Source: Coniferiporia sulphurascens
Lineage: Eukaryota > Basidiomycota > Agaricomycetes > Hymenochaetales > Hymenochaetaceae
NCBI GenBank assembly: GCA_002794785.1
Contig: NBBA01000022.1
Coordinates: 186,001 to 250,000, forward strand
Direction of reading: 5' to 3'
DNA length: 64,000 nt
Shown: positions 46,979 through 61,713 of the stretch, one piece after another
Position numbering within the stretch: position 1 is the stretch's first letter
How the letters are laid out: every line of letters begins with the position of its first letter
Translations under genes and position numbers: made by a program
The notes under the pieces: generated by a model
What the model was told of the DNA's origin: nothing
Database searches by the model: none
What the model saw: the letters and a program-made list of their open reading frames with translations, nothing else

Positions 46979-48339
46979 TTAAATATCCTTCACCTGCTCC
47001 TCCAGCCAATTCCATAGTTCCTCGCCCGTCTTCGAATCCTCCGTTCCACGGCCTGCAGAGCCGACGCGAGCCCAGGGAACGAGAAATGCTCCGCTAAGGT
47101 CCTTGGCGTCCGGGGACGTACCAGCATAAAGCTGCGTTAGCGCGCCAAAAGAAGGCTCATACATATATATCGTGTCCTGAAAGTAATCTGAACGGGTCAG
47201 CTAAGCGCGAAGCACGGACAAAGAGAAAATATGCTGACAATCATCCGTCTCACGACCGGATTGGAGTGCCGCAAGATGTCTGTCTTCAAGATTCCTGGAT
47301 TTTATGCTTTCAATATATCATCACATCGGAAAACATCATACACGAACGAACCTGGAGCACAGGCAATGGCTACGACGCCTTCTTCACCGTACCTCTTTGC
47401 AATTTCCTTCGACAATATGACGTCGGCCTGCGGGGTGGTTAGAATGAGCATCATTCATATTTTTATGTCCTCACGAATTTGCTCTGTGCGTACAGCCCCT
47501 TCGGCCCAAGTTTATTCCTTTTGGAGCCAGGTTTGAGCGATTCGTATTCGATCTTCTGCGCGAAATGGCGCATGATGGATGAAATGGTGATCACGCGCGC
47601 TTTGCCATCGGGCGACGATTTCGACCCTTCCGCGAGTTTCGGTAGGAGCAGCTTCGTTAAGTAGAAGTGCCCTACGTAAGAGAGCAGAATTCAGTTTCAG
47701 GATTTCTTGTGATTGTGATACATTCAAACCAACCAAGAACATTCGTCCCAAATTGCAAGTCATAACCATCTGCGGTTAGCATGTCCAAAGGTGCCCACAT
47801 AACGCCCCTGTGAGTTCTTAATGAGAAAACAGCAGCATACCAGATTGAGATGTCATTCACTCGTTATTAAAGAGAATATGCAATTCTTTCTCCTGGCTAT
47901 TAGCCGAGCGACTTGCGGTGAGCACAGCTTCCCCGCCGCTTGGACGAGAAACACTTGCCTCGCAAAACTCTCTGCTGCTTGCTTGATCGACTTCAAACTT
48001 GCCAAATCCAACTCTAGGAAGATTGCCTCTTTTCCGGTCTCCTTCTTGAGCTCAGCAATCGCGGTGTCCGCCTTTTCCTTGTTCCGACACGCCATGTAGA
48101 CCTTTGCATTGTTGTTGAGCAGGACCTTTCAGGCACAAAGCTTGTCAGACTGAGTGCATACGAGAGAACAAAAAGAGCTATCTACCACGCACCTTCACTG
48201 TCTCCTTCCCTATGCCGGAATTGCTGCCCGTGACCAAAACAACCTTCTCCGACAAGTCCGGTACATCCTCGGCATTGAATTTGGATGTCGGGGGAAATGC
48301 TTCAAAGCTGAAGCTTCCAACGCTGCGCACAAAGTCCAT
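46979..48339 (-). CDS. Short-chain dehydrogenase/reductase
   Basis: NAD(P)-dependent oxidoreductase of about 330 residues. ATG 48339: [20 protein letters not shown]. The Rossmann motif is [17 protein letters not shown]; then [38 protein letters not shown]. After two introns comes [18 protein letters not shown], where the usual NNAG/NNGG reads NNEG. The region [15 protein letters not shown] and the catalytic GLYAQSKF (YxxxK) follow, then ends with [20 protein letters not shown] and a C-terminus of EQVKDI. It belongs to the WWOX/retinol-dehydrogenase-like group common in fungi; substrate unknown. Six or so introns; one exon end uses GT within GCAAGTG and CAG acceptor to keep frame. Confidence 0.9.
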
Positions 48340-49743: not shown

Positions 49744-49750
49744 TATAAAA
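49744..49750 (+). promoter_or_regulatory. TATA box of the pheromone precursor gene
   Basis: TATAAAA lies 106 nt upstream of the ATG at 49850, followed by a pyrimidine-rich leader. This layout is usual for highly expressed small fungal genes and supports the tiny ORF being real. Confidence 0.6.
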
Positions 49751-49849: not shown

Positions 49850-49969
49850 ATGGACTCCTTCAACGTTAACTTTTTCTTCTCGACCTCGTCCTCCTCCCAG
49901 GACTCGAGCGTCCCTGAAGATCGAGAGGCCAACAACGGCTCCAGCACCACCTTCTGCGTCATCGCGTAG
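49850..49969 (+). CDS. Lipopeptide mating pheromone precursor (CaaX)
   Basis: Single-exon gene of 39 codons. The product starts MDSFNVNFFFSTSSSSQDSS and ends TTFCVIA followed by TAG. Three marks identify a basidiomycete pheromone precursor: the MD-x-F start, the length near 40 residues, and the C-terminal CaaX box CVIA (Cys codon 49955-49957), which is farnesylated, trimmed and carboxymethylated in this family. An acidic/basic pair DR (in PEDREANNG) sits 12 residues before the Cys, where the N-terminal cut that frees the mature peptide is expected; the mature pheromone would be about 12 residues ending in farnesyl-Cys. The TATA box at 49744 supports expression. No STE3-type receptor is visible in the window. 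A chance ORF is possible but unlikely. Confidence 0.84.
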   Translation: MDSFNVNFFFSTSSSSQDSSVPEDREANNGSSTTFCVIA

Positions 49970-50488
49970 AAATTGCTTGCCCATCTCCTACCTCTTTTCT
50001 ATACACGTCGGTGACACACATGTAAGTAATCTCCTCCGTACTAAATATATATATGGCGCTGAAGAAACTGCCGCCCACAGTTGTAACTCTATCAACTGAC
50101 TCAACTTTCGTTTTGGCCACAATTTTGAGCGTGTCGGACCACGATCTCCACGCGCATATTATTATTTTCGTTCGAATTCGCACCACTTTTCGGGTTTTTG
50201 GGATTATCATGGGATGAAGGGGGGTCAGAATGGCTATCTAGATGGCGGAGATGACTTTGGTGAAACGGGAGGCTCACTTGTATTGACGCACGCTTACGCT
50301 CTTGGACGATTTGGAATGATATAATGATCAACTCTAAGCACCAGATAACAATTGGTACCGAACATGCCTGAGTTTCTTCGCTTCAGAATCTCGCGAAGCC
50401 GATAAAAACGGCTTAGCATAAGTTACAAATAAATTAATAAAAAAAGAAAGAACAAGAGAGTAGCTGTAGCCAACTGTCCATTGTGCGC
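49970..50488. other. Spacer between pheromone gene and arrestin-like gene, no gene seen
   Basis: Convergent 3' flanks, AT-rich in part (TATATATATGG near 50045). No second pheromone frame was found on either strand. Confidence 0.45.
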
Positions 50489-53720: not shown

Positions 53721-55801
53721 TTACCGCCAGCTGTCTGTGAGCGTGAGCGCTCCGCTGGCCGGTACTGTGATCTGGTTATTGGGGTCAGACTCCCAAGTAA
53801 CAGATCCACCATCCTCGCGGATGTACTTGTATTGCACGATGCTGTTGATAGGAAGACTGATTGTGACTGAATCGTATCGTCAGACCTTCCAAATCGTGTC
53901 GAAGGGTAATGTGTGTACGTACTGCTCCATGTAGGATAGTTCGCTGATGACAAAAGCAGAGCATCATCCGTGGACCAGTTAGACAGGGCGTCGGCAGACC
54001 CGGTGATATAGATGTTTTCTGGAGAGCAGAAGGTGATATGAGCTTATTGGAGTCAAAGGCGTGAGAGTAAACTGCCAACCTCCAGGCGTGGTCTCAGCAT
54101 CGACATTAAACGTCACCTTCACCGTTTGCCCATTACCTCCCGCCTCGGTCACGCAAGTAGACGGGACAGTCAAACCCTTTGCCCCCCAACTTGCAAATTT
54201 CGCGTTTGTTCCGTTCCGCGCCTCAAATGCTGTGAGGGCGCTTGCGTAACTCCACGTTAGATCAACAGCGCTCAGTGGCGTTCCATCTGTTTTATCATAC
54301 TGCTCCGATAGCCCACCATCTGCGGGAGTATATTGCGCAGCAAGCGCAATATACGAGTCTGCATATGCCTTGATAGCCGTGGTGAGGGTAGTGTAGGTAC
54401 TGCTTGAGGAAGTATAGGTGCCTGGGCTGATCGAGGAATCGAATAGAGCAAAGAAAGGTTGGGATAGAGACGTTACAGTAAGTGTGCCCTCACTTGACCA
54501 CACTTGAAGAGCATCGTAAAGCTGTTCGACAACTGCAAAGGTTGCAATGTACCAGGGCTGAAAAACGATAAGTGATGCGTATCTACACTCTGAGAAACTG
54601 CTTACGTTTCCGCCCATATATACATCCTCAGGGTACCTAGCAAAGGTTGGGTTCAAAGCAAAAATTTACGGGATGAAGAGTGCATACCTCCCAGTTGCAA
54701 GCGCGGCGCCGCTCGATAAACCGGAGTTCAGACCATACACAGTTTTAAAGCTTTCCACATATGTCAATAAGTTAGCCAGAGCCTTGTCTGAGCACGGCTG
54801 GAATGTATTTGCATCGCATCCAGCGTTCGCATCGAAAGTGTGGATAGACGCAAGCATTGCATTTACGTCGATTCCCGAGCGTCCTCCGCCTGTGTTCGCC
54901 GTCATATACGAACTAGAACCGGCAGAGTGCCAGAAAGACTGCATGAAGCAAAGAATGCCATCTGCCTGTGTGGCATACGAACTGATTGAAGAAGATACTC
55001 CAAGGGTAGAGGCAAGGGTTATGCCCTCACGGAGAGCGCGGTGTTGCACGGCTGATGTAAAGAAAGAAGAAGAATCTAATTCTTCCCAAAGATCGAAGCT
55101 AAACGTCGGTCCGTAAAGCGTCAACATTACTACTCATGCACAACATTAACCATAAGGCTCACGTCGAGAGATTCCAATTCAGCGAAACGTAATCAAGGTC
55201 GAGCTTGATCATTGGCCAGAGTGTAGAAGAGACAAACGTCTCATTTGAATTGTCGATTAGCCAGTTTGCATACGTGATCAATGCAGTTGCACGCAATGAA
55301 GGCCCATCTATTGATTATGGGTGAGCAACGGCGGTCAACCAACTTCCTGAAATTCTGACCTCTCTGTGGCCGGCCCCACGCTCCTGTAAACGCGGTAATG
55401 TTGACATTGAACTTTGGCTCGCCTAGACCACCAGTAGAAACGGATCCGCTCGGATTGGCGGTCTGTTGCAGTGTTCCTTCCGCGGCTACAAAAGCGTCGA
55501 TAAGTCCCCGAAGACTTGTGTCAATGCCTGTCGTGAACTGGTCGATGAGCATTTTGAAGACCAGTGACGAGTCACGCGTCCAAGTGTAGACATAATCGGG
55601 GTCTGTCGTCGAGGGTGAGGCTACGACGATTCCAGCATGAGCACCCTGGCTTTTAGCGCCGTCCGGACCGATGTTGGCTAACACGCCAGCCTTTGCGACT
55701 ATGCTCTCTGTCGCAACATAAGAATCGACGGAAACTGCAGCTCCCAGGTGGGAGACGCTTGCAATCCCTAGCAAAGACACAGCAAGAGTAAAGAGACGCA
55801 T
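53721..55801 (-). CDS. Glucoamylase (GH15) with C-terminal CBM20
   Basis: Secreted exo-acting enzyme that releases glucose from starch. ATG 55801: MRLFTLAVSLLGIASVSHLG is a signal peptide. The GH15 (alpha/alpha)6 domain shows VDSYVATESIVAKAGVLANI, VVASPSTTDPDYVYTWTRDS (substrate-binding), VSTGGLGEPKFNVNITAFTG, WGRPQRDGPSLRATALITYA, FDLWEELDSSSFFT (general acid Glu) and LSEQYDKTDGTPLSAVDLTW (catalytic base Glu in LSEQY). A short linker precedes the starch-binding CBM20: VKVTFNVDAETTPGGENIYI, LSNWSTDDALLLSSANYPTW, then VQYKYIREDGGSVTWESDPN and a final SWR. The CBM20 is interrupted by a 50-60 nt intron. Domain order and length (about 570-580 residues) are normal for fungal glucoamylases. Confidence 0.94.
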
Positions 55802-56901
55802 GATGGCCTCGGGAAGAGGAAAAAACTGAGTTAGCATGGCTTCAACCTCAGCCTCTGGTTTTATTGGTGCTCGTCGGCTCGATTAGCGGCAGCGAGTAGG
55901 CGAGATATGTTGCTCGTTCGGGGCCTTTGTTCACGGCGTCGTCAAAGACGCGGTCCTCGCCAATGTGGATGTTGGAGGAGCCGCGGTCCGGTGACTGCTC
56001 GCAGCATGCACCCGAGTAGAAGACCCTGCCCGTCATCATCATGCTTCCCGTCATTTGGTTCCGAGGATTATGGACCTTCCATGCGGGGAGCTCCTCCAGG
56101 ACCCAGGACCGCCCCTTCGTGAGCTGTGAGCAGCGGCAACCAGCATGGGCAAGTAGGACTCGCAAGTACGAGTGCGACTTGCATCTTCGTACGCTGCGCA
56201 AGTGAGTGGTGTGCTGGCGTTCCGCCACGCGACGGATGCAACCGAATTATCGATTACGTAGCCGCTATATTTAGACTGGCACTGGCGACTCCTGCGCCTG
56301 TTCGAAACGACCCGCCAGTACGCGATCCAAGAGTTTTTGTCAATTTATGTTCGCCAACTGACATGCATATTCCTGGCCTCAGACTTACTCAAATCGCAAA
56401 TGCGCCCTGGCCCCAAGCTATTCATGTCCTTTTTACAGAGTTTTCCTAGCCGACATCAACTTCACATGTGCTCTGGCTGGACAGCCTGAGATAAGAACGC
56501 GGTCTCAATCAAACCAGTTCCATCCCTTGTGCTCAAATGACTTCCGAAAAATGCTCCCCTCCCGTGATTGCTCCCGAGCACACACAGCATATACTCGTGC
56601 CTCTGGGCGGGAGTTAGAAAACACGAGATAATTCATGGCTTTTCCGCAAGGGGACACGGTCCGGGGGTTGCGCCGTTTCAAAACAATCCGCGCAAAATTC
56701 AATGTCACGTGTTCCCCATTCAAACCTGCCTTCGACCGCTAGAAGAACGACCGCGGAGGCACCGACTATCGGGAGATAGATAAGATTAGGCCAACCGTAT
56801 GCGGAAGCTGCTTAACCTGATACATCGTCCCGCGCCTTTTCCCCCGGGTTTTGCACAGTTTTGCGCCAGACGTCCACTCCTCCTCCTGAGGTTCCCCCAA
56901 C
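55802..56901. other. Upstream region of oxidase copy 1
   Basis: Divergent region between the glucoamylase and the amine oxidase. Its right 450 nt (from about 56450) align by eye with the region upstream of copy 2, including CATCCCTTGTG and the 14-nt element at 56654. Confidence 0.5.
56654..56667 (+). promoter_or_regulatory. Conserved promoter element, oxidase copy 1
   Basis: ACACGGTCCGGGGG, identical to 59491-59504 upstream of the second copy. It sits 248 nt before the ATG. It may be a binding site (it contains CGG/CCG triplets as zinc-cluster factors like), or just recent duplicate identity. Confidence 0.4.
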
Positions 56902-58837
56902 ATGATGCTCAAGCTTGCCAGTCTCTCCGTGCTCGCCATACACACCTTGCGAATCCATGCGGTAAACGCCGGACACGAAGCACTTAGGTCGCTGGACAAA
57001 GACGCATCTGTGCTCATCCTTGGTGGGGGCGTAACCGGCGTCATCGCTGCGCGAACTCTGCACGAACGTGGGCACGACAATTTCATTCTTGTCGAAGCGA
57101 GGGACGAGCTCGGCGGACGTATGCAGACGAAGACTCTGGGGAAAGGTAATCATAGCTTCACGGTCGAACAAGGTCCAAACTGGGTGCAGGGAACACAAAC
57201 GGGCGACGGCCCGCAAACCCCATCCTCCTTCTCACTGAGAAGCACAACGTGAAAACGCAGTTCAACGACCTCTTCGGAAGCTTGAGTAAGCAAAATGTTG
57301 TATCACCAGAATGCTTCTGATTTTCTCTGTCTTACGGTAGCTTTCTACGACTTTAATGGGCCCGCCAATTTCTCGGATACATTCAATGACGAAGATGATG
57401 CATTCACCGATTTCACTGTGAAGGCAGGTAATGAAATCTCACGATCTCCAATAACTAGGCTCATGTTTGCTGAACACACTGGATTGTTCTCTAGGTGCGA
57501 GGCTTCACAATGGCCTGTTAGACCTTAGCGCGCGTTCTGGATACTCTCTGGTTGACTCAAAGCCCCTGACGCACACGGCCCAAACCTCCGAATATTACCT
57601 TTTTGATTGGGAATATGCCCAGACTCCTGAAGAATCATCATGGATCGCATCTTCGCTCGTGCGTATGCGCGGCCATTATCAAACTCCGGAGTGATTTATA
57701 AGTCTATTCATTTACAGAACAACAATTTCACATTCGACCCTGACATGGGCGGATTCTCCGAAGACAATCTATTGTGCGTTGATCAACGCGGATTTAAAAC
57801 GATTATACAAGCCGAAGCAGCAGAATTCCTTACTCCGGCACAGCTTATGCTCAATGCAACCGTGAAAGAGATCTCGTACTTCGCCTCAGGCGTGAATGTG
57901 ACCTTGACTAATGGCACGCATCTTAGCGCTGACTACGCGCTGGTGACATTTAGCCTCGGCGTCCTGCAAAATGACGACGTGGTGTTTAAGCCGAAACTTC
58001 CGGACTGGAAGCAAGAGGCCATACAGAGCATCACGATGGTACGCATACTACTCTCTACATTGCTTTCTGTATACAAAGCGAAATCTCACTGAAGTCTGTA
58101 CACTCAAGACAACGTACACGAAGATCTTCCTCCAGTTTCCCGAGAACTTCTGGTTTGATACTGAGGTATGTCATGAGCACACATTCACCCGGAGACTCGT
58201 GTCTGAATGAGCCACAGATGGCCCTATACGCAGACAAAGAACGTGGAAAATATCCGGTTTGGCAAAGCCTCGACCACATAAACTTCCTCCCAGGCTCCGG
58301 CATCGTCTTCGTAACGGTTACTGTACGTCCTTGTAAACTGCTCACCATCATCTGACACCGTCTAAAAACAACGACATTCCGTTTTCAGGGAGATTATTCC
58401 AAGCGGGTCGAGGCGCTCTCCGACGCGCAGGTACAATCTGAAGTGCTCGACATCCTCCAGCTCATGTTCCCGAACACGACCATCCCGACCCCGACGGACT
58501 TCTTCTTTCCGCGCTGGCACAGTAACCCCCTCTTCCGTGGCTCGTACTCGAATGTCCCCGCGGCCTACGTCCCGGCGCATCAGGAGAATCTCCGTGCGAC
58601 TGTAGATGACAGACTCTGGTTCGCCGGAGAGGTCTCGAGCATCAAATATTACGGCACGTCCCTGCTCGCTTCCTAAAACTATACGTTTTTCAAATAAACT
58701 AACATAGGTTTTTCGACTACTTAGGCTTCTTACACGGTGCTTACTTCGAAGGGTTAAACGTTACGAATAAACTGGCAGACTGTATCGAGACCGGGGGCTG
58801 CTCCGGACTACCGCATGTTTCGAGCATAAGACAGTAG
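56902..58837 (+). CDS. Secreted FAD-dependent amine oxidase, copy 1 (1-nt frameshift)
   Basis: Flavin-containing amine (polyamine-type) oxidase. ATG 56902: MMLKLASLSVLAIHTLRIHA is a signal peptide, then ASVLILGGGVTGVIAARTLH (FAD GxGxxG), EARDELGGRM, EQGPNWVQGTQ. Compared with copy 2, one G is missing at about 57208-57211, shifting the frame just after TGDG; without correction the frame ends at 57252. All later exons are intact: FYDFNGPANFSDTF, LLDLSARSGYSLVDSKPL, WEYAQTPEESSWIASSL, GGFSEDNLLCVDQRGFKTII, TLTNGTHLSADYALVTFSLG, VWQSLDHINFLPGS, DRLWFAGEVSSIKYYG, FLHGAYFEGLNVTNKLADCI. Splicing 57184-57242 as an intron would restore the frame at the cost of 20 residues. So it is a young pseudogene, an intronised gene or a sequencing error. 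Confidence 0.8.
58654..58724 (+). other. GC-AG intron, oxidase copy 1
   Basis: 71-nt last intron with donor TACG|GCACGT and acceptor CTTAG. It joins KYYG to FLHGAYFEG in frame; copy 2 has the same junction and donor. Confidence 0.65.
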
Positions 58838-59776
58838 ATTCTCCAACACTCACGTACGGGTTTTCTGGCGGTGATGTTTCTGACTAGACAAGCCTTGTAG
58901 ATATACGCACTCGTCTGAACAATTATCAGGGTATATGCACCTTGCAGCCATTTGCCATCATCTGAATGTGATTCCGAGGACTATAGGCCTTCTATGCGGG
59001 GAGGAGAGAAGTGTCTCTTCGCGTGCTGTGGGCGTCATATGGGTAATTGGGACTGACAAATGCTACTTTGATCTCGCCACGCGGCCGAGATCGACCGAAC
59101 TACTGATTACGTACTGTATTTATTTAAAGACTGCTGAAGATCTCGTCGCAGGCCGATCTAGTAAGAGTTTTTTGTCGTTGCCCGCCAACTGACATTGCCC
59201 TTGTTGTTCGGTCTCAGGCTCTCTCATGTCCTGGTATCGACCAACTCGCCTCATTAGACTCCCAAGGCCCTTTCCAGCCTCTGCTAATGCGCAAACTCCC
59301 TTTTGTGGAGTTTCCAGGCTGACATTAAGTCCACGGGCGCTCTCGCTGGACGACGTGAGATAGGAACGCAAACTTACCCAAGCCAACTTCCATCCCTTGT
59401 GTCCTTGCTCCGGCGAAATGCTCTTCTCGTCTTCCCTACTCCCGGACACGCAGTGTATGCTACGAGATTTAATGGCTTTTTCGCATGGAAACACGGTCCG
59501 GGGGGCCGCGTCAGCCGCAGCGATCTCCTGACGATCAGCATCGACCAGCAAACGATGATCGACCACACGAAAGTCGATATCACGTGTCTTTCCCTGGCGG
59601 GTGGATGTCCAAACTTGCCTTCATCCACTGGAAGCACAGACAACGGGAGACACACTGGATTGTAGTCCATTCGTACGCAGAGCTGCCTAACCTGATACTT
59701 GCCCTGCTCAATCTTTCCCCTGGTCTGCGCGCCATCAATGCATTCTCCTCCACCCTCCTCCAAGTCGAGCTTTAAT
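58838..59776. other. Spacer and promoter of oxidase copy 2
   Basis: No gene seen. From about 59310 onward the sequence parallels the region upstream of copy 1 (CATCCCTTGTG, ATGGCTTTT, ACACGGTCCGGGGG), so the duplication unit includes the promoter. Confidence 0.5.
59491..59504 (+). promoter_or_regulatory. Conserved promoter element, oxidase copy 2
   Basis: Exact copy of the 14-mer at 56654-56667, here 286 nt before the ATG. Flanking sequence is less conserved than the element itself. Confidence 0.4.
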
Positions 59777-61713
59777 ATGATGTTCAAGCTTGCCAGCCTC
59801 TCCGTCCTCGCCTTACACACCCTGGGAGTCCGTACAGCAAACGTCGGATACAAAGCACTAAGTTCTCTCAACAAAGACGCGTCTGTACTCATCCTGGGCG
59901 GGGGCGTAACCGGCGTAATCGCCGCGCGAACTCTGCACGAACGTGGGCACAACAATTTCATTCTCGTCGAAGCGAGGGACGAGCTTGGTGGCCGCATGCA
60001 GACGAAGACTTTAGGCAAAGGTAATCATAGCTTCACGATCGAGCAAGGTCCAAATTGGGTGCAGGGGACACAGACAGGTGACGGGCCCGTAAATCCTATC
60101 CTCCTTCTCGCTGAGAAGCACAACGTAAAAACACAACTCAATGATTTCTACGGAAGTCTGGGTAGGCAATCTTTCTGATGCGTCGCCGGGACGCTTCTGA
60201 CTCTCTACGTCTTATGCTAGCTTTCTATGACTTTGATGGGCCCGCCAATTTCTCGGATACATTCCAAGGCGAATACGACGCATTCACCGATTTTACTGTA
60301 AAAGCAGGTAATATAACCTTGCAATTCTCTAATAAACGGGACATGCTACTCAAACATCGGATTGTTCTTTAGGTGAGAGGCTCAACGAAGGCTTACTAGA
60401 CCTCAGCGCACGTTCCGGGTACTCCCTAGTTCACTCAAAGTCCCTGATGCATACGGCTCAAACTTCCGAATATTACCTCTTTGATTGGGAATACGCTCAG
60501 ACTCCCGAAGAAACATCGTGGATCGCATCTTCACTGGTGACTATACACGGCCACTACTGTAATTATCTGGTCTATAACTGTAATCAAATCACAGATTAAC
60601 AATTACACATTCGACCCCAGCATGGGCGGATTCTCCGAAGACAATCTATTGTGCATTGATCAACGTGGATTTAAAACGATTATACAGGCCGAAGCAGCGG
60701 AATTCCTTACTCCGCCACAGCTCATGCTCAATGCAACCGTGAAAGAGATCTCGTACTCCGCCTCAGGCGTGAATGTGACCTTGACTAATGGCACACACCT
60801 CAGCGTGGACTACGCGCTGGTGACATTTAGCCTCGGCGTCCTGCAAAATGATGACGTGGTGTTTAAGCCGACACTGCCTGACTGGAAGCGGGAGGCCATA
60901 CAGAGCATCACGATGGTACGCATAGCACTCTCCACATTCCTTCTTTTACACGAGGCAGAATCTAACCGAAGTCTATATACTCAAGGCAACGTACACGAAG
61001 ATCTTCCTCCAATTTCCCGAGAACTTCTGGTTTGATACGGAGGTGTGTCCTGAGCATACATTCACCTGGTGACTCATGTCTGAATTAGCCACAGATGGCC
61101 CTATACGCAGACAAAGAACGTGGAAAATATCCGGTTTGGCAAAGCCTCGATCACATAAACTTCCTTCCAGGCTCCGGTATCGTCTTCGTAACAGTCACCG
61201 TAAGTCTTTGCAAAGTGATCGCCGCCGCCTGACACTGTCTTAAAACATCAATATTCTATTTTCAGGGGGATTATTCCAAGCGGGTCGAAGCGCTCTCCGA
61301 TGCGCAGGTACAGTTTGAGGTGCTTGACATCCTCCAGCTCATGTTCCCAAACACGACCATCCCAACACCGACGGACTTCTTCTTCCCGCGCTGGCACAGT
61401 AACCCCCTCTTCCGCGGCTCGTACTCGAACGTCCCTGCAGCCTACGTCCCGGCTCACCAGGAGAATCTCCGTGCGACAGTGGATGACAGACTCTGGTTCG
61501 CTGGAGAGGCTTCGAGCATCAAATATTACGGCACGTTTTTGCCTCCGTTTCAACTCATACGCGCTTCTGGTTAGCTAATACGGGTACTCTTAATACTTAG
61601 GCTATTTACATGGTGCTTACTTCGAAGGCTTAAACGTTACGAATACACTGGCAGATTGTATTGAGGCGGGGGGCTGCTCCGGACTACCGCATATCTCAAG
61701 CATAAGACAGTAG
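59777..61713 (+). CDS. Secreted FAD-dependent amine oxidase, copy 2
   Basis: Intact tandem paralogue of the gene at 56902-58837. ATG 59777: MMFKLASLSVLALHTLGVRT (signal peptide), ASVLILGGGVTGVIAARTLH (FAD-binding), EARDELGGRMQTKTLG, EQGPNWVQGTQTGDGPVNPI, LLLAEKHNVKTQLNDFYGSL. Further exons: FYDFDGPANFSDTF, ERLNEGLLDLSARSGYSLVH, WEYAQTPEETSWIASSL, GGFSEDNLLCIDQRGFKTII, THLSVDYALVTFSLGVLQND, TYTKIFLQFPENFWFDTE, PVWQSLDHINFLPGS, DDRLWFAGEASSIKYYG, YLHGAYFEGLNVTN, ending CSGLPHISSIRQ. Several N-glycosylation sites (NFS, NAT, NGT, NVT) fit secretion. The last intron (61531-61600) has a GC donor. Product would oxidise an amine and release hydrogen peroxide; substrate not evident. Confidence 0.9.
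61531..61600 (+). other. GC-AG intron, oxidase copy 2
   Basis: 70-nt last intron, donor TACG|GCACGT and acceptor CTTAG, joining KYYG to YLHGAYFEG. Same position and donor as in copy 1. Confidence 0.65.

Follow-up and report, generated by a model that had tools for sequence, protein, structure and literature searches.

A probable CaaX pheromone-like precursor gene of Coniferiporia sulphurascens and its dispersed relatives

A very short open reading frame ending in a CaaX box in the genome of Coniferiporia sulphurascens (39.35 Mb, 31 contigs, numbered here with the prefix C) raises the question of whether it encodes a lipopeptide pheromone precursor and, if so, whether that pheromone belongs to the B mating-type system or to a dispersed class of precursors that does not determine mating type. 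The frame lies at positions 49850–49969 (+) of the window, by which we mean the whole stretch of 64,000 nt analysed (C22:186,001–250,000). A first-pass annotation had reported a single-exon gene here, and translation bears this out: MDSFNVNFFFSTSSSSQDSSVPEDREANNGSSTTFCVIA comprises 39 aa followed by a stop codon. Such a length fits the class (about 20–100 aa), and the earlier remark that the frame falls below usual ORF cut-offs is fair for 39 codons. Genes of this type are short, divergent and often overlooked by annotation; in excerpts of a Rhizopogon study, about half of the precursors were found by a CaaX pattern script alone (PMC5473757; this and the other papers cited are drawn on in excerpt).

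The translated frame opens with MDSF (49850–49861), runs to EDR and continues as EANNGSSTTFCVIA, closing with the CaaX box CVIA (49955–49966), so that both of the ends originally claimed are present. An MDS/AF motif is described for the N terminus of such precursors (PMC8305134), and eight of the nine candidate precursors compared below start with MD.F, the C9 candidate starting with MDIC. Predicted N-terminal processing would take place at the charged pair D24-R25 (49919–49924), which belongs to the ER/DR/EH class regarded as processing motifs (PMC8305134) and stands 11–12 residues before Cys36, in line with the charged dipeptide found 10–15 residues ahead of the C terminus or CaaX box in lipopeptide precursors (PMC5473757, PMC5100862). 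A DR pair 12 residues before the cysteine had been claimed, and this holds for D24 relative to C36. For the same reason the mature peptide, previously put at about 12 residues, has 11 when counted from the residue after R25: the predicted product is EANNGSSTTFC (49925–49957), with its cysteine farnesylated and methylated. That this putative peptide is specific to the species is plausible.

Could so small a frame have arisen by chance, or be part of another transcript, without any pheromone function? Its size, its low-complexity, Ser-rich middle and its failure to reach the Pfam cut-off by itself (see below) would be compatible with this. However, although seven frames in the window end in a loosely defined CaaX box, an MD start occurs in this one only. 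When the window was simulated 300 times with a third-order Markov model, 67 ORFs of 30–80 aa ending in C[VILA][VIL][AST] were obtained, of which six started with MD and a single one with MD.F; none of the MD.F frames in the 300 simulated windows also carried a D/E-R/H/K pair 7–12 residues before the cysteine. The window ORF is thus rarer than expected by chance. Its codon composition is also distinctive: third positions are 85% G+C and 67% C, values reached by 0.36% and 0.1%, respectively, of 5,000 random stretches from the window. Third-position C amounts to 42–67% in the paralogues (six measured) and to only 24–31% in three neighbouring exons with Pfam matches, and the bias is therefore a mark common to the paralogues rather than one of coding sequence in this region generally. 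The overlapping ORF on the antisense strand has no Pfam match.

The paralogues themselves provide a further argument. Queried with the window protein, the genome returned, besides the gene itself, C1:3,977,342 (E = 3.2e-4), C19:61,808 (E = 0.008), C5:1,780,027 (E = 0.018) and C11:745,667 (E = 0.6), all of which are short MD.F...CaaX ORFs. The C8:288-kb paralogue was not recovered by this search; it belongs with the others by way of C5 (E = 0.0028), which in turn matches the window gene. In local alignments of the window protein with C1, C5, C11, C19 and C8:288 kb, none of 3,000 full shuffles reached the observed scores; with both ends held fixed, the scores were reached by 0 (C1), 0 (C5), 0 (C11), 1 (C19) and 4 (C8:288 kb) shuffles, each out of 3,000. 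Since end-fixed shuffles so rarely do as well, the likeness goes beyond Ser-richness and a common CaaX box. The same test led us to reject a relationship between C8:1,073,928 and the window gene, since 654 of 3,000 full shuffles reached the observed score. Taken with the low simulated chance rate, the shared third-position bias and the promoter anatomy described below, this paralogy beyond composition makes a chance ORF very unlikely.

Scores against the Pfam Pheromone profile (PF08015, cut-off 22 bits) place the window protein below the cut-off (14.1 bits), with the C11, C19, C5 and C1 proteins at 17.6–20.1 bits; the C8:288-kb protein, at 30.0 bits, is the only one of the nine candidates to exceed it. 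The C9, C8:1,074-kb and C8:1,095-kb proteins gave no match to this profile and are for that reason weaker candidates. With the profile as query and E up to 10, the genome gave matches at four places, namely C8:288 kb (22.8 bits, above the cut-off), C1 (19.6 bits), C10:1,409,627 (17.7 bits) and C19 (14.1 bits). The C10 match, in which there is an internal stop, was dropped as a precursor for want of an MD...CaaX frame.

The nine candidates (the C22 window gene, C1, C5, C9, C11, C19, C8:288 kb, C8:1,074 kb and C8:1,095 kb) were completed by pattern scans. CV(I/V)A followed by TRR occurs 41 times in the genome, compared with 29 times for the reversed control pattern; removal of 13 matches that end in TGG and hence lack a stop left 28, six of which are precursors (C1, C5, C8:288 kb, C8:1,074 kb, C11 and C22), and in the frames inspected the remaining 22 showed no MD-starting precursor. 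The pattern (F/Y)C(V/I/M/T/A)(I/V)(A/S/T) plus TRR gave 40 matches (27 for the control), of which 15 ended in TGG and 25 in a stop; the latter comprise six known precursors and 19 others, two of them precursor-like (C8:1,095,044 and C9:1,081,413, the C9 candidate). As these genome-wide scans covered the listed CaaX types only, the set of nine is a lower bound. The two C8 frames C8:1,073,928 and C8:1,095,044 (−) lie 21 kb apart, and both carry DAGR(D/N)DS, either ahead of or within the mature part; they share a contig with the STE3 cluster, at 292–314 kb from it, and have no STE3 match beside them. Elsewhere, the same 30-aa ORF ending in CVIA occurs twice, 5 kb apart, at C15:223409 and C15:228376; it has the look of a repeated element, not of a pheromone. 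Protein databases queried with the C19 and C11 precursors yielded no homologue at E ≤ 1, a result that concerns these two queries and not the window protein, and that does not argue against homologues in other fungi.

Two of the paralogues contain two pheromone modules each. At C19:61808–62005 (+), a 66-aa ORF carries EHSSSGSITYCVIA and EHSNNSSITYCIIA, with 35 of 42 bases identical; the first CaaX box is internal and would need to be exposed by cutting, as has been suggested for rhodotorucin-type precursors (PMC3068285). At C8:288098–288319 (−), a 74-aa ORF carries two different modules, DRPGGGSGTTYCVVA and EERGGDGQTYCVIA. In this respect both resemble the precursors of Rhodotorucin A in Rhodosporidium toruloides, which the same source describes as tandem units with CaaX-like spacers, whereas the window gene has a single unit. 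A literature search for precursors with two CaaX boxes turned up one study, on the ascomycete Verticillium dahliae.

Gene anatomy outside the coding frame is similarly shared. The TATAAAA reported 106 nt upstream of the ATG is found at 49744–49750 (+), TATAAGA occupies the identical −106 position in the C1 paralogue, and CTCGCAA immediately precedes the ATG in both genes. Across seven genes (the C9 and C8:1,095-kb genes being left out of this comparison), a TATA-like box lies 76–154 nt before the ATG in six, C8:1,074 kb being the exception, compared with 13.8% of random positions for a stretch of similar extent. A candidate 3′ UTR intron, defined by consensus match only, is present at 50022–50080 (+), and six of the seven genes, all except C5, have such a candidate, compared with 17% of random positions under a similar rule. 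These frequencies are supportive rather than proof, because the random null includes coding DNA and the intron rule differed slightly. In A. bisporus, 3′ UTR introns were found in three of four precursors from ESTs (PMC8305134). With one paralogue above the PF08015 cut-off and an anatomy common to the set, the originally proposed identity is upheld: that the window gene encodes a CaaX lipopeptide pheromone precursor is well supported by sequence comparison.

The gene could nevertheless be a pheromone-like duplicate that has fallen silent or is decaying, a reading suggested by its divergent mature part and by the 11 residues after DR, compared with 8–10 in the modules of C1, C5, C9, C11, C19 and C8:288 kb (cut sites chosen by us). 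However, frame, start motif, processing pair, CaaX box and promoter-like box are all intact, and decay appears quite unlikely. The 8–10 residues in main-group paralogues make a further trim of the predicted window peptide possible.

Where, then, does the gene lie with respect to the mating-type loci? The first-pass annotation had linked it to the B mating-type or pheromone-receptor system, a link that the searches did not support. Matches to STE3 (PF02076) occur in the genome only at C8:772,662–781,279, comprising nine exons when E up to 10 is allowed and eight at E up to 0.001; we read the nine as three receptor genes. The window gene (C22:235,850) is separated by some 235 kb from the closer end of its 570-kb contig, and so does not sit beside STE3, a separation that is established at the level of contigs and not of chromosomes. 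Two genome STE3 searches and a scan of C8:750,001–800,000 led us to reject B-locus linkage. In the latter interval, CaaX-ended frames included no MD-starting precursor except the start of a receptor exon, with unsplit frames only being considered. Homeobox KN (PF05920) matches fall at C1:3.743–3.748 Mb and C12:1.010 Mb, and the window gene is consequently not linked to these matches either; homeodomain linkage was rejected. The window gene is at neither the receptor nor the homeobox locus of the assembly. Its relatives are dispersed over C1, C5, C8, C11 and C19, with a further candidate on C9; the C1 paralogue is 229 kb from the C1 homeobox group, and the C8:288-kb paralogue is 484 kb from STE3.

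Within the window, Pfam matches identify as neighbours a short-chain dehydrogenase exon (47856–48128, −), GH15 glucoamylase-like exons (53982–55882, −) and an amine-oxidase-like exon (57631–58089, +); of the ten ORFs scanned, the remaining six had no Pfam match. The amine-oxidase-like gene appears in two very similar, seemingly tandem copies (57631–61571, +), with ORFs at 57.6–58.7 and 60.5–61.6 kb, the Pfam match coming from the first copy.

Location bears directly on the possibility that this is a true B (P/R) pheromone that has become separated from its receptor. MDSF, DR and CVIA also occur in B-locus pheromones, and in Hypsizygus marmoreus PHB1 and PHB3 end in CVIA and sit in the receptor region, according to the portion of PMC8686365 consulted. 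In anatomy and inferred processing the window precursor indeed resembles Hypsizygus PHB1–3 and Rhizopogon phb (PMC8686365, PMC5473757), but those genes are near STE3, unlike the window gene. In favour of a separated B pheromone, the 50-kb interval scanned at the STE3 cluster yielded no pheromone ORF, which implies that any B ligand is either elsewhere or intron-split, and the window mature peptide diverges from the consensus for non-mating-type precursors. Against a B pheromone, the window gene is not on the contig bearing STE3, at least four similar genes are dispersed in the manner of the non-mating-type class (PMC4101180, as excerpted), and the two B-like candidates with DAGR are already on the receptor contig. 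We consider a separated B pheromone unlikely.

The peptide itself gives limited guidance. For species related to A. bisporus, the mature consensus is quoted as GGGSGN(G/N)AYC, that is, GGGSGNGAYC or GGGSGNNAYC (PMC8305134). EANNGSSTTFC aligns to these no better than its shuffles do (shuffle fractions 0.35 and 0.33), and its inclusion in this group by its own sequence is not supported; unlike precursors of that type, it is not Gly-rich and ends in TFC. Fractions were 0.027–0.105 for C1, C5, C9, the first C19 module and both C8:288-kb modules, and 0.107–0.217 for C11 and the second C19 module; C1, C5 and the first modules of C19 and C8:288 kb are nearest to the published consensus. The test discriminates poorly: fractions as low as 0.046 and 0.039 were obtained for the B-like C8:1,095-kb peptide as well. 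Thus, with no consensus likeness of its own, the window gene takes its non-mating-type label from family likeness and location. By eye, the window peptide groups with C11 (ERANASSFTFC) and C9 (ERGSISFTFC), all three ending in TFC.

Both lines lead to published counterparts. The window gene shares a short MDS/AF...CaaX frame and a charged dipeptide with the non-mating-type precursors of Agaricus bisporus, C. cinerea and L. bicolor (PMC8305134). In the same excerpts, the A. bisporus precursors are scattered, unlinked to the receptor, at most loosely linked to MAT and processed at charged dipeptides; the set described here is likewise scattered, without receptor or close HD-locus linkage, and has a 3′ UTR intron that is predicted in our case. 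Pycnoporus cinnabarinus has seven precursors of 39–65 aa, four of them non-mating-type-like (PMC4101180), and, compared by description, agrees in length range, MDA/DF start, CaaX end and the presence of a mutually similar group. By analogy, the set resembles these scattered non-mating-type pheromone-like precursors (PMC8305134, PMC4101180, both in excerpt). The window gene therefore probably belongs to this dispersed, pheromone-like class of CaaX lipopeptide pheromone precursors in basidiomycetes.

If the published pathway (PMC8305134, in part) applies, a short transcript would start downstream of the TATA box, and the 39-aa precursor would be farnesylated on Cys36, lose its last three residues (VIA), be carboxymethylated on the cysteine and be cut at D24-R25 to remove the N-terminal part. 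EANNGSSTTFC(farnesyl)-OMe would then be exported and may be sensed by an STE3-type receptor. As the gene is far from the pheromone receptors, mating type is probably not decided by it and it is probably not a mating-type determinant; its role may be that of a general signal in sexual development or between hyphae.

More tentatively, and with considerable doubt, the dispersed set of at least nine pheromone-like genes, including two two-module ORFs and the divergent subgroup ending in TFC (window, C11 and C9), may outnumber a compact STE3 cluster beside which no ligand gene was found; its products might then form a non-mating, possibly self-sensing repertoire in which the window peptide would be one ligand. 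The window gene itself is of an expected kind, and the two-module paralogues are the more interesting by-product and deserve follow-up. With a set of ligands and a receptor cluster now named in one genome, ligand–receptor pairing becomes directly testable.
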